Shown here: piece by piece, positions 10,221 through 29,861 of the stretch
How the letters are laid out: the number at the start of each line of letters is the position of its first letter
Position numbering within the stretch: the stretch's first letter is position 1
Source of the DNA: Vibrio sinaloensis
GTDB taxonomy: Bacteria > Pseudomonadota > Gammaproteobacteria > Enterobacterales > Vibrionaceae
Length of the DNA stretch: 64,000 bases
Reading direction: 5' to 3'
Assembly: GCF_000808535.1 (NCBI RefSeq)
Contig: NZ_JWLV01000012.1
Coordinates: 124,001-188,000, forward strand
Program-made: the position numbers and the translations under genes
The notes under the pieces: model-generated
Told to the model about the DNA's origin: nothing
The model's input: only the letters and a program-made list of their open reading frames with translations
The model's database searches: none

Positions 10221-10400
10221 TTTAAAATCCTCTATGGGGTTAGGCCTCCACATTCCCCATAACTCCGACTAGGCTTCTGCCCAGCACCCCGGAATATGTG
10301 TCGGAATGTGTGTGATTTAAAGATAAAAGTATATATGGAACTGACCAGCATCGCCGCTTCATCGATGAGAAGTGAAGAGAACTGACCACATTTCCGGCGC
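10221..10400 (-). promoter_or_regulatory. rpsB 5' leader, candidate S2 autoregulatory RNA
   Basis: About 180 untranslated nucleotides lie between the rpsB promoter and its start codon. They include G-rich/C-rich complementary stretches just upstream of the start (GGGGAATGTGGAGGCC and AACCCC on the minus strand). In enterobacteria S2 represses its own operon through a conserved leader of similar length. Assigning the same role here is inference from position and length; I did not derive the full fold. Confidence 0.5.
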
Positions 10401-17484: not shown

Positions 17485-18594
17485 TTACTCACAAACGTAC
17501 TCAACCACATTAAGACCGAAGCCGCCTAGGGCGTGATACTTCTTGCTTGCCGACGACAACAAACGCATATCATGGACGCCAAGGTCTGCAAGGATCTGAG
17601 AGCCCACCCCAACACGGCGTGATGTACCTTGTTTCTTAGCCAACGTCGGAGCTTCGCCCTTGTCTTGCGCTTCGAACATTTTCACACGGTGGATCAGCAA
17701 GTCCGTCGATTCTTCGTTGCCTAAGATGACCAATACCCCGCCATCTTTCCCGATACGCTTCATTGCAGCATCGAGTGTCCAGCTACGCTCAGCATTGCGA
17801 TCGCTATGAAGTAAGTCTGTGAAGGTATCTTGTAAGTGAACACGTACTAACGGAGCGTCACCGGTCAAGTCACCTTTGCACAACGCGTAGTGAATTTGGT
17901 TGTCAATAGTGTCACGGAATGTCACCAAATTAAAATCGCCAAATTCGGTTGGAAGCTTACACTCCGCGACGCGTTCGATGGTCGTTTCGGTGTTATTGCG
18001 ATACTCGATAAGGTCTGCGATAGTGCCTAACTTGATGCCGTGCTTCTCAGCGAAGATTTCCAAATCTGGGCGACGCGCCATGGTGCCATCGTCATTAAGG
18101 ATTTCAACAATCACGCCTGCAGGCTCTAGACCGGCAAGACGAGCGAGATCACAGCCTGCTTCAGTATGCCCTGCGCGGGTTAGCACGCCTCCTTCTTGCG
18201 CCGCTAGTGGGAAAATATGACCAGGTTGAACCAAGTCAGCAGCTTTGGCGTCTTTCGCAACCGCCGCTTGTACCGTGCGCGCACGGTCTGCCGCAGAAAT
18301 ACCGGTTGTTACTCCCTCTGCGGCTTCAATAGAAACGGTAAAGTTGGTTGTATATTGGGCGTTATTGTCTTGCACCATCGGAGGTAAGCCAAGACGCTCA
18401 CAACGCTCTTTCGTCATCGTCAAACAAATCAAACCGCGACCGTGAGTTGCCATAAAGTTGATCGCTTCTGGCGTCACGTGCTCTGCCGCCATGATCAAAT
18501 CACCTTCGTTTTCGCGGTCTTCGTCATCCATTAGGATAACCATTTTACCTAGGCGAATATCTTCAATAATCTCTTGCGGGGTACTAATTGGCAT
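17485..18594 (-). CDS. ribB: 3,4-dihydroxy-2-butanone 4-phosphate synthase fused to a degenerate GTP cyclohydrolase II-like domain
   Basis: 369 residues. The N-terminal half (about 1-200) is a complete DHBP synthase with [12 protein letters not shown] (about 23-34), [10 protein letters not shown] and [12 protein letters not shown]. The C-terminal half (about 205-369) aligns with GTP cyclohydrolase II but lacks its zinc cysteines: where RibA has the GDxxxSxxCDC type motif this protein reads [13 protein letters not shown], and the RibA QEGR-type segment is also altered. The second domain is therefore very probably not a GTP cyclohydrolase. This matches the RibBX variant described from Shewanella and other proteobacteria. 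It lies after ribE in the nrdR-ribD-ribE-ribBX run, and no FMN riboswitch is seen upstream. Confidence 0.9.
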
Positions 18595-25390: not shown

Positions 25391-25855
25391 TTACTTTTGT
25401 TTGCGGTTGATTGGCTCAACGTACTGGATAGACATGTCCCATGGCTGCTCAATCCATGTATCTTGAGCAATGTCTACCACGTAATCGTCTAGCAGTTCTA
25501 CTCCAGCAGGTTTTGCACAAACAGCAATCAATTTTGCTTTCGGGTACATTTCACGTAACTTACGCGCGGTATCACCACTGTCAACTAGGTCTTCCACGAT
25601 CAGGAAGCCTTCACCGTCACCTTCAGGTGCTTTTACAACAGTCATATCACGTTGGTGGTCGTGGTCATAGCTTGAGATACAAATCGTATCAACGTGACGA
25701 ATACCGAGCTCACGAGCAAGAATTGCCCCGGGAACCAAACCACCACGGCTTACCGCCCAAATACCTTTCCACTGCTCAGCTGGCATCTGTTTCTCAGCCA
25801 ACTCGCGACAGAATGTGTGCATTTGGTCCCATGTGATAATGAATTTCTTAGCCAT
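25391..25855 (-). CDS. gpt: Xanthine(-guanine) phosphoribosyltransferase
   Basis: Purine salvage enzyme, 154 residues, transfers phosphoribose from PRPP to guanine, xanthine and hypoxanthine. The PRPP loop [20 protein letters not shown] is at about residues 85-104, and N-terminal [16 protein letters not shown] and [12 protein letters not shown] are typical. A PurR-like operator lies about 87 bases upstream (25942-25957). The adjacent upstream gene encodes a purine permease, so the two are a salvage pair. Confidence 0.95.
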
Positions 25856-27726: not shown

Positions 27727-27754
27727 AAAAAAACGCCACTCAATTTGAGTGGCG
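27727..27754 (-). terminator. Strong terminator of the short transcription unit
   Basis: Perfect 9-bp stem CGCCACTCA/TGAGTGGCG (27734-27754) with a 3-nt loop, followed on the minus strand by U7. There is no annotated-size gene before it; it ends the unit that starts near 28040 and contains the 28-codon ORF. Confidence 0.88.
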
Positions 27755-27840
27755 GTTGAATCATGTCAGCTATATAGGAGCTGTAAAAAAATTCCAATAT
27801 ATAGGGGTGAACAAACTTGTTCGAGAGTCACAAACTTGGA

Positions 27841-27927
27841 TTAGTATCCGAAGCTTGTTGGGTAAGTAAAGCTGCCTGTGTAAACTGAGCTGTTTAGCCA
27901 GAACGCTGCACTTGGTAAACCTTTCAT
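27841..27927 (-). CDS. Small ORF, 28 residues, possible small protein of a dual-function RNA
   Basis: Reads MKGLPSAAFWLNSSVYTGSF followed by TYPTSFGY and a TAA stop. The ATG at 27925-27927 has a good AGAAGG site about 8 bases upstream. No membrane segment and no cysteine; rich in Ser, Thr and aromatic residues. It is framed by a promoter-like pair (TTGTAA, 16 bases, TATATT) at about 28047-28074 and by a strong terminator, giving a transcript of roughly 310 nt. A CRP-like site lies just upstream. The V. cholerae dual-function RNA VcdRP encodes a 29-residue protein and is CRP-repressed, so this could be its relative. That link is inference; I could not compare sequences. Confidence 0.6.
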   Translation of the reverse strand: MKGLPSAAFWLNSSVYTGSFTYPTSFGY

Positions 27928-28046
27928 AACTATCACCTTCTAAATCAATGAAAACTAAATAAACACTATTGATTTCTCGGTTCCTTGGAGGCGACAAATC
28001 GGACTCATCCTTTGAGCATTTTCTCTTCGCTTTCGAAGTTGGTGTA

Positions 28047-28074
28047 AATATACCTCAAAGAAATTTAATTACAA
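28047..28074 (-). promoter_or_regulatory. Promoter of the short transcription unit
   Basis: On the minus strand -35 TTGTAA (4/6), a 16-base spacer and -10 TATATT (5/6). The predicted start near 28040 leaves a leader of about 110 nt before the 28-codon ORF; the leader has a CTTCG/CGAAG hairpin near its 5' end. Confidence 0.6.
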
Positions 28075-28081
28075 GCACAAA

Positions 28082-28097
28082 AGTGACAAAAGTCACA
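28082..28097. promoter_or_regulatory. CRP-like site
   Basis: AGTGACAAAAGTCACA matches 9 of 10 bases of the CRP consensus TGTGA-N6-TCACA and is almost perfectly palindromic. It is centred about 50 bases upstream of the predicted start of the short minus-strand unit, a spacing not ideal for activation. It could instead repress that unit, or act on pepD 290 bases away. Confidence 0.65.
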
Positions 28098-28388: not shown

Positions 28389-29861
28389 GTGTCTGAATTC
28401 CATTCTGAAATCAGCAACTTATCACCTGCTCCACTATGGCAGTTTTTCGATAAGATCTGTTCCATCCCTCACCCTTCTAAACATGAAGAAGCGCTTGCCC
28501 AATACATTGTCAATTGGGCGACAGAGCAAGGTCTAGACGTTCGTCGTGATCCAACAGGCAACGTGTTCATTAAAAAACCAGCAACACCGGGCATGGAAAA
28601 CAAGAAAGGCGTCGTTCTGCAAGCGCACATCGATATGGTGCCGCAGAAGAATGAAGACACCGATCATGACTTCACTAAAGATCCAATCCAACCTTATATC
28701 GATGGCGAATGGGTAACAGCGAAAGGGACGACTCTGGGTGCTGACAACGGCATGGGCATGGCATCGTGTCTAGCAGTACTTGCCTCTACAGATATTAAGC
28801 ACGGTCCAATCGAGGTTCTGCTGACGGTTGATGAAGAAGCAGGCATGACAGGCGCGTTTGGTCTTGAAGCAGGTTGGTTGGAAGGTGAGATCCTTTTGAA
28901 CACTGACTCAGAGCAAGAAGGCGAAGTCTACATGGGTTGTGCGGGTGGTATCGACGGTGAAATGACTTTCGATATCAAGCGTGAAGCAATCCCAGCAGGT
29001 TACGTGACTCGTCAGCTAGTGCTAAAAGGCCTAAAAGGTGGTCACTCTGGTTGTGATATTCATACAGGTCGTGGTAACGCAAATAAATTGGTTGCACGTT
29101 TCCTTGCAGGTCACGCCCAAGAACTTGATCTTCGTCTAGTGGAGTTCCGTGGTGGCAGCCTACGTAATGCGATTCCTCGTGAAGCTTTCGTCACTGTCGC
29201 GGTTCCTGCTGAAAACGAAGCAAAGTTGGCAGAGCTATTTGAGTTCTACACCAACCTATTAAAAACTGAACTCGGTAAAGTAGAAACCGACATTGTTTCT
29301 TTTAATGAAGCCATCGACACCGACGCTCAAGTTTTAACCATCGCAGATCAGCAACGCTTCATCGCCGCTCTAAACGCATGTCCAAATGGTGTGATCCGTA
29401 TGAGCGATGAAATCGAGGGCGTCGTTGAAACTTCTCTGAATGTTGGTGTAATCACCACTGAAGAAGACAAAATTCAAGTTCTCTGCCTTGTGCGTTCTCT
29501 TATTGACTCAGGTCGTCAGCAAGTGGAAGGCATGTTGACTTCAGTTGCTGAGTTAGCAGGTGCAAGTATCGAGTTCTCTGGCGCTTACCCTGGCTGGAAA
29601 CCGGATGCAGATTCTGAAATCATGGCTATCTTCCGTGATATGTACGAAGGCATCTACGGCCACAAGCCAAACATCATGGTAATCCACGCAGGTCTAGAAT
29701 GTGGTCTATTTAAAGAACCTTACCCGAACATGGATATGGTCTCTTTCGGTCCAACCATCAAGTTCCCTCACTCTCCAGATGAAAAAGTGAAGATTGATAC
29801 CGTTGCCCTATTCTGGGAGCAAATGGTCGCTCTACTAGAAGCTATTCCAGAAAAAGCGTAA
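28389..29861 (+). CDS. pepD: Aminoacyl-histidine dipeptidase (peptidase D)
   Basis: M20 family cytosolic di-zinc peptidase, 490 residues, cleaves dipeptides such as Xaa-His. GTG start with AAGGAG 7 bases upstream. Metal/catalytic motifs: VLQAHIDMVPQ (about residues 78-88), GADNGMGMA (about 118-126), VDEEAGMTGA (about 147-156), and the lid-domain KGGHSGCDIHTGRGNA. In V. cholerae a PepD homologue has been linked to biofilm formation. A strong terminator follows. The 241 bases between the FNR-like region and the start show no other gene. Confidence 0.95.
   Translation: MSEFHSEISNLSPAPLWQFFDKICSIPHPSKHEEALAQYIVNWATEQGLDVRRDPTGNVFIKKPATPGMENKKGVVLQAHIDMVPQKNEDTDHDFTKDPIQPYIDGEWVTAKGTTLGADNGMGMASCLAVLASTDIKHGPIEVLLTVDEEAGMTGAFGLEAGWLEGEILLNTDSEQEGEVYMGCAGGIDGEMTFDIKREAIPAGYVTRQLVLKGLKGGHSGCDIHTGRGNANKLVARFLAGHAQELDLRLVEFRGGSLRNAIPREAFVTVAVPAENEAKLAELFEFYTNLLKTELGKVETDIVSFNEAIDTDAQVLTIADQQRFIAALNACPNGVIRMSDEIEGVVETSLNVGVITTEEDKIQVLCLVRSLIDSGRQQVEGMLTSVAELAGASIEFSGAYPGWKPDADSEIMAIFRDMYEGIYGHKPNIMVIHAGLECGLFKEPYPNMDMVSFGPTIKFPHSPDEKVKIDTVALFWEQMVALLEAIPEKA

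Follow-up and report, generated by a model that had tools for sequence, protein, structure and literature searches.

What is the short unit on the minus strand between a purine permease gene and pepD in Vibrio sinaloensis, and which of its parts have been kept among relatives? The window, meaning the whole 64,000-nucleotide stretch analysed, holds an NCS2-type purine permease gene (Xan_ur_permease, PF00860; 26070–27359) on one side of this unit and the dipeptidase gene pepD (28389–29861, plus strand) on the other.

Identity of the unit

The first-pass annotation had read the interval as a minus-strand promoter, leader, 28-codon ORF, C-rich patch and terminator, and each of these was found where it had been placed. 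In order of transcription, a CRP-type site (TGTGA-N6-TCACT, 28082–28097, one mismatch to TGTGAN6TCACA) lies upstream of the −35 element of a sigma-70 type promoter (TTGTAA-16-TATATT, 28047–28074; −35 at 28074–28069, −10 at 28052–28047), the position of which agrees with that in a Vibrio relative, G034. With a start at 28040, set by homology to G034, the transcript would extend over about 314 nt to 27727, close to the 310 nt first predicted. The vcdP Shine–Dalgarno (SD) sequence AGGUGAUA (27931–27938; AGGTGAT in 100/128 leaders) precedes an ORF with an ATG start and 28 codons (27841–27927, MKGLPSAAFWLNSSVYTGSFTYPTSFGY), which is followed by the base-pairing seed UGUUCACCCC (27804–27813, with CACCCC at 27809–27804) and by an intrinsic terminator (27727–27754; stem 27754–27734, 9 bp with six G–C, and a run of seven T to 27727). 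Comparison with shuffled sequences gave different results for the different signals: matches to the −35 and −10 elements alone are not above chance (5 found, 4.1 expected), terminator-like sites are (2 found, 0.3 expected, the second being the CRP-type palindrome), and the RNA from 28040 (313–314 nt) has a fold more stable than its shuffles (z −2.66, none of 100 shuffles being equal).

As the promoter hexamers are no better than those of shuffles, it might be asked whether this is merely a chance ORF beside an unrelated terminator. We reject that reading, the probability of which is negligible, on the conservation of the peptide, its match to the VcdP family and a dN/dS of about 0.28 among 75 unique 28-codon vcdP ORFs, in which W10, F20, Y22 and G27 are invariant and which bears out the purifying selection that the first-pass annotation had proposed to look for. 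That annotation had counted a lack of conservation among vibrios as evidence against the unit; the window peptide is matched at E ≤ 1 in 159 of 196 genomes of the genus, a few of these matches being weak, and the VcdP profile at E ≤ 0.1 in 270/329 genomes of the family, representing 10 of its 13 genera. V. anguillarum, V. furnissii, V. harveyi and V. splendidus are among the best 80 of 102 confirmed VcdP loci, a set of 80 that does not include V. cholerae.

Against the NCBIfam model NF053523.1, ‘small protein VcdP’, the peptide obtains 64 bits (cut-off 50), aligned over residues 1–28 of 28. In V. cholerae, VcdRP is a 306-nt transcript with an ORF from 104 to 193 and a seed at 223–232 ending in four C, and its gene lies between vc2278 and vc2279 with a CRP site upstream of the −35 region (PMC8672173, on the available part of which we draw throughout). 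The window has its elements in the same order as V. cholerae vcdRP (CRP site, promoter, leader, ORF, C4 seed, terminator). Its neighbourhood also matches, vc2278 and vc2279 being a permease gene and pepD. When the ATG of G034 is set at +104 (a position imposed by putting the start 103 nt upstream of it, not found) the stop falls at 193, CCCC at 229–232 and the last T of the terminator run at 306, all as published; G062 treated in the same way gives the published stop at 193 and CCCC at 229. We infer that G034 is V. cholerae or close to it. The unit in the window is laid out like that of G034 but is 8 nt longer: its ORF has 28 codons, and about 10 nt are added in the leader. Because the family match, the neighbourhood and the published spacing agree, we regard the identity as settled: the locus is almost certainly the orthologue of V. 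cholerae vcdRP (Vcr082), and the comparison first suggested for both the peptide and the C-rich part has turned out to be one of homology. As a locus it is a known element, ordinary for Vibrio, and extends the known RNA to one more species of the genus. That the first-pass annotation called it unannotated comes from its having had no gene annotation to consult.

A search against Rfam 15 (which includes Spot 42) gave nothing at gathering scores at the locus, NsiR1 alone appearing, at E 0.31 and short of its threshold, and membership of an Rfam family was therefore rejected. Elsewhere in the window Rfam matches were obtained for t44 (10239–10332, minus strand, 81.7 bits) and for Vibrio RNA AS9 (18394–18497, plus strand, 77.2 bits). 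The gpt gene (25391–25855, minus strand) reaches 337 bits with the NCBIfam Tet(34) model, slightly short of the cut-off of 345, and 245.5 bits as a xanthine phosphoribosyltransferase (cut-off 138), and so reads as an ordinary housekeeping gene.

The control and base-pairing elements are widespread among the 128 units with unique leaders. The CRP-type site, scored as the best in 80 nt around the promoter, has one mismatch in 75 units, at most two in 102 and four or more in 11; in shuffles one mismatch was reached in 0.1% and two in 3%. A run of at least four C in any context occurs in 120/128 units (in L166 it stands behind the terminator; L140 has CCC only), the seed form TTC-A/G-(N)-CCCC in 98/128, and the form in the window, TGTTCACCCCTATA, is the commonest (50/128). 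Two loci (L121 and L122) have about 60 nt extra between the vcdP stop and the seed. In V. cholerae the 3′ part, VcdR, uses its CCCC to pair with PTS mRNAs where their translation starts, which blocks sugar uptake; the C4 seed is required for target repression, and the targets are ptsG, nagE, treB and ptsHI (PMC8672173). In the window’s own genome GGGG lies at −20 to −4 of the first ATG in 5/18 PTS EIIC/HPr genes (one HPr, four EIIC-type; a sixth, with a GTG start, L220, was left out of this count) as against 0/55 genes of the window, or 1/55 if any GGGG near the start is allowed (Fisher p 0.0006 for 5/18 versus 0/55), although the start rules differ, being the first ATG for the PTS genes and the first ATG with an SD-like or GGGG stretch for the window genes. 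The PTS genes with GGGG at the ribosome-binding site include ptsH (HPr) and nagE-like and treB-like genes, the latter names being read from the protein starts. The PtsG-like gene of this genome (L216) lacks GGGG at −20 to −4, although ptsG is a demonstrated target in V. cholerae.

Conservation of the leader

The first-pass annotation had noted only a small hairpin in the leader. A hairpin is indeed present there, but this understates a region that holds the most conserved stretch of the unit. At the 5′ end is a hairpin CUUCG/CGAAG (28025–28040), four of whose five pairs are kept in 44–53 of 59 leaders and the innermost in 27. It is followed by what we call the H module (28000–28017), a hairpin GCUCA-AAGGA-UGAGU and then CCG, and by the C module (27976–27993), CGCCUCCANGGAACYGAG, with its ANGGA in a hairpin loop. 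In the window the two GGA are 26 nt apart (28010 and 27984). Overlapping the C module is a candidate anti-SD, GUCGCCUCC (AUCGCCUCC in most relatives; 27987–27995), complementary to the vcdP SD.

The leader core, CGCCUCCANGGAACYGAGA, was found within four mismatches before a VcdP-like ORF at all 194 of 194 loci, which yield 128 unique leaders; CUCCANGGAACYGAG is exact in 126 of these, the exceptions being L034 and L040. Two positions vary, N being A in 92, U in 17, G in 15 and C in four leaders and Y being C in 95, U in 32 and A in one. The mean pairwise difference is 0.46 at N, 0.38 at Y and 0.006 over the other 16 of the 18 core positions (126 leaders with a motif-like core start), compared with 0.48 at third codon positions of the vcdP ORF. 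It should be noted that the 128 leaders were found by the core pattern with one mismatch allowed, so that the exactness of the core within them is partly due to selection. As a check on this, nearly all of the 194 loci (from L001–L198, four 100-base probes excluded; several are the same genome twice) were retrieved through the peptide. The exact 18-nt core occurs in 153/196 genomes of the genus, once in each except for G037, where it occurs twice, and the reversed control gave none; the four core-positive genomes without a clear match to the window peptide carry diverged VcdP-like ORFs. The leader is more conserved and more widespread than the base-pairing arm and is the unexpected part of vcdRP.

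A strict H module pattern is present in 125/128 leaders. GGA lies in the loop of a hairpin near the core in 126/128 leaders compared with 13% of shuffled sequences, AGG and GAT being found in such loops nearly as often (116/128 each). The stem of hairpin 1 changes from C–G to U–A at two pairs in seven and five of 40 sequences; double-changed cells number 12 against 5.4 in shuffles and the covariation score is higher, none of 500 shuffles being as high, while two of the five covariation measures are not above shuffles (double-change pairs 2, with 2.6 in shuffles; further pair types 7, with 7.5). Hairpin 2 (UCG/YGA) hardly varies, and the support for its pairing comes from folding alone. The modules can also be rearranged: in the genome with a match in family f25 a hairpin stands behind the core rather than before it (3/20,000 shuffles give such a hairpin), and the L178 leader has two cores. 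The alignment sets were chosen for diversity (A2, 59 leaders; A3, 40; fold set, 41). A3 is without L166 and L178, in which hairpin 1 is not in its usual place, and about five shifted rows in it count as unpaired; the fold set has no row for L034 and L188, and for L039, L120, L129 and L174 the start used was an in-frame ATG farther upstream. The 128 leaders do not include G119, whose core has lost one base.

Across the class the core motif was found at 12 places in 11/369 genomes, the window’s own included (reversed control 2). Of the 11 places outside the window’s genome four were inspected and are taken as chance, L199, L200 and L202 lying in long open frames and L203 being without such a unit. 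Two other explanations of the conserved stretch were dropped. A conserved upstream ORF, seen by eye from the ATG in GGATGAG, was abandoned because its codons would be altered by the free N of ANGGA and because the H module moves in f25, and a pseudoknot of the H type, in which the GGA loop would pair with the CC after it, was dismissed by reasoning on loop length. At a different position, the purine permease ribosome-binding site in L173, L174, L188, L197 and L234 has a near-identical motif directly before the ATG (e.g. CTCCAAGGAACCGAG), that of most listed Vibrio loci being like AGGATTCGA; this is possibly a shared CsrA-type site, or a coincidence.

Possible readers of the leader

CsrA/RsmE sites have an ANGGAN loop in which contacts are made with the A and with GGA (available part of PMC7652899). 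The leader resembles two such sites, one in each module, in that N is free within a fixed ANGGA, GGA lies in a hairpin loop and the stem may change. The H and C modules would be candidate CsrA sites 1 and 2, and we put at about even the chance that CsrA gates the translation of VcdP through this leader. In the mechanism that we propose the CGCCUCC stretch, which overlaps the second GGA-loop hairpin, would pair with the vcdP SD (AGGUGAU) and hide it. Part of the same CGCCUCC bases could also form the local hairpin that displays ANGGA, and CsrA bound to both hairpins would keep CGCCUCC off the SD and so permit translation of VcdP.

Seven of the eight anti-SD:SD pairs can form in 55–59 of 58–59 aligned leaders and the other in 46/58, but the bases are near-invariant, so that the pairing draws no support from covariation. 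Nor is it independent evidence, because CCUCC complements any SD; the GUCGCCUCC/AUCGCCUCC stretch resembles the 3′ end of 16S rRNA. Predicted sequestration of the SD is inconsistent, the pairing reaching P ≥ 0.5 in 16/41 folded leaders (in four of the 41 the start was taken at an in-frame ATG farther upstream), with a value of 0.20 for the window. In favour of CsrA we counted G122 (L034), the one genome seen in which vcdP is broken by a stop, since site 2 is degraded there. Against it we counted CUCC..AC.GAG and the CCG after hairpin 1, which are kept beyond what a CsrA site needs.

These positions, fixed far beyond the needs of CsrA, are also what would be expected if the leader were read by something else, i.e. 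a small molecule (a riboswitch), another RNA-binding protein or the ribosome, with the SD freed or hidden by alternative pairing. Such a switch would fit the two mutually exclusive folds (hairpin 2 or anti-SD:SD) and the single copy of the exact 18-nt core in each Vibrio genome that has it (two copies in G037). The permuted modules of f25 and the duplicated core of L178, on the other hand, suit independent protein sites better than a single aptamer, the N within ANGGA drifts freely and Rfam gives no family match; we consider this alternative possible and distinctly less probable than gating by CsrA. The two GGA-loop hairpins near the 5′ end also raise the question of whether VcdRP is a CsrA sponge, a third function in place of control of VcdP translation. 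McaS is an example of a sponge RNA. The sites in VcdRP number only two, the leader stays with the ORF in units that lack the base-pairing arm, and in L034 leader and ORF have decayed together. The last two observations argue for control in cis, and a sponge is improbable.

Gating by CsrA would be a new feature of this RNA as far as the literature searched goes, in which no paper linking VcdRP with CsrA was found (the one co-mention is in a source that by its title concerns Rickettsia conorii) and no description of a conserved leader signal of vcdRP. The VcdRP paper mentions ‘several highly conserved sequence elements’, and neither CsrA nor the terms leader, riboswitch or secondary structure appear in its available text (PMC8672173); the available text of a paper on V. 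cholerae CsrA does not name vc2278 or vc2279 (PMC7858070). What is new here, within the literature searched, is the conserved leader signal, vcdRP itself being known already. If the CsrA reading of the leader is true, CRP and CsrA, two global carbon regulators, are joined on the one RNA by which sugar uptake is balanced against the citric acid cycle, which raises the question of whether CsrA sets the ratio of VcdP to VcdR.

Variants, range and comparison with known systems

A covariance model of the two leader modules (R1) matches in 35/325 genomes of the order: 22 Vibrionaceae, two of family f11 and 11 of a single genus (g14) in family f2. The VcdP profile is matched at E ≤ 0.001 in 22 genomes, none of them from f2. 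All 11 f2 units (L257–L267) have the leader, a 27-residue peptide (e.g. MKNSVPATPVFGDLYNTKFTYPRHLGY) and a terminator directly after it; the C4 seed is absent from all 11, pepD does not adjoin in the four with neighbours listed, and the peptides have no Trp. Their ends are like FTYPRHLGY, where VcdP of the window has FTYPTSFGY, and on the shared leader and this C-terminal pattern we call them VcdP-like and regard them as probable homologues.

Within the Vibrionaceae four units are without a C4 run (L128, L171, L172 and L184). L128, from Photobacterium sp. OFAV2-7, is peptide-only, with leader, VcdP ORF and terminator and without a seed; L171 (L233; G254) is a peptide-only second copy away from pepD in a genome that also has a pepD-linked copy, and L172 (G210) adjoins pepD. 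In G037 (L031/L236) leader and ORF are in tandem, with cores at 2919 and 3173, 254 nt apart, and the seed and terminator stand behind the second copy only, perhaps as one transcript with two VcdP ORFs. The converse is found in G122 (L034), where vcdP has an early in-frame stop and the GGA of site 2 is lost but CCCCC is still there, as is the terminator; this is a natural RNA-only form. Such peptide-only and RNA-only variants are separation-of-function experiments by evolution, and they qualify the published claim that base pairing and vcdP were conserved together in all seven species tested (PMC8672173). They might suggest that in V. sinaloensis too only one function is left, the other being vestigial, but in the window both are intact (VcdP is over its cut-off and the seed is of the commonest form), which makes this very improbable. 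Of the 43 Vibrio genomes without an exact core, R1 is clear in three (G112, G119 and G122), weak in two (E about 0.04) and without a match in 38, with the proviso that the filters of the scan lose weak matches and that the 43 include two genomes of about 1 Mb and one with a completeness of 73%; from these 38, vcdRP seems to have been lost or strongly changed in part of Vibrio. A supposed plasmid copy, NZ_CP099936.1 (V. parahaemolyticus BM26A ‘plasmid unnamed’, L239), was rejected as such, being a linear 31.8-kb record with chromosomal neighbours. It holds the vcdRP neighbourhood (permease, tet(34)/gpt, frsA and crl), with no gene listed at vcdRP, and may be a chromosomal contig labelled as a plasmid.

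From this distribution we tentatively suggest, at somewhat below an even chance, that the oldest part of vcdRP is the leader with its peptide, a two-hairpin switch read by CsrA that would serve VcdP-like proteins in at least four families (Vibrionaceae, f2, f11 and f25), most sampled Vibrionaceae having the C4 arm behind it. If this is true, then CRP (transcription), CsrA (translation), Hfq (targets) and GltA (enzyme) are joined in one RNA of 310 nt.

Among known systems the closest is V. cholerae VcdRP itself. There CRP–cAMP represses the vcdRP promoter, the RNA binds Hfq and is processed by RNase E, and VcdP binds and activates citrate synthase GltA, an activation also seen in V. natriegens (PMC8672173). 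Judged by its conserved parts, the RNA of the window would likewise be repressed by CRP, bind Hfq, pair with PTS mRNAs and, through its peptide, activate GltA. The two are alike in neighbourhood, CRP site, promoter, ORF, a seed ending in CCCC, terminator and, within 8 nt (the start being taken from homology), length. They differ in the number of codons (28 in the window, 29 in V. cholerae) and in the leader, to which the window adds about 10 nt; G034 also has the leader modules. The V. vulnificus orthologue, VvdRP, has been reported to be expressed, with levels under different carbon sources determined by RT-qPCR, in a report the available text of which says nothing on the leader (PMC9737408). 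For the leader the best comparison is that of E. coli ymdA, in which one CsrA site lies within a structure that sequesters the SD and a second immediately upstream of that structure, and CsrA activates (available part of PMC7652899). The anatomy is the same as that proposed here, but ymdA is a different gene and CsrA binding, shown for ymdA, is predicted for the vcdRP leader. As a dual-function RNA VcdRP is like SgrST of enteric bacteria, in which the 3′ part represses PTS mRNAs and a small protein is encoded upstream of it; the systems differ in that SgrT inhibits PtsG and the gene is activated by SgrR, whereas VcdRP has VcdP and CRP (PMC8672173).
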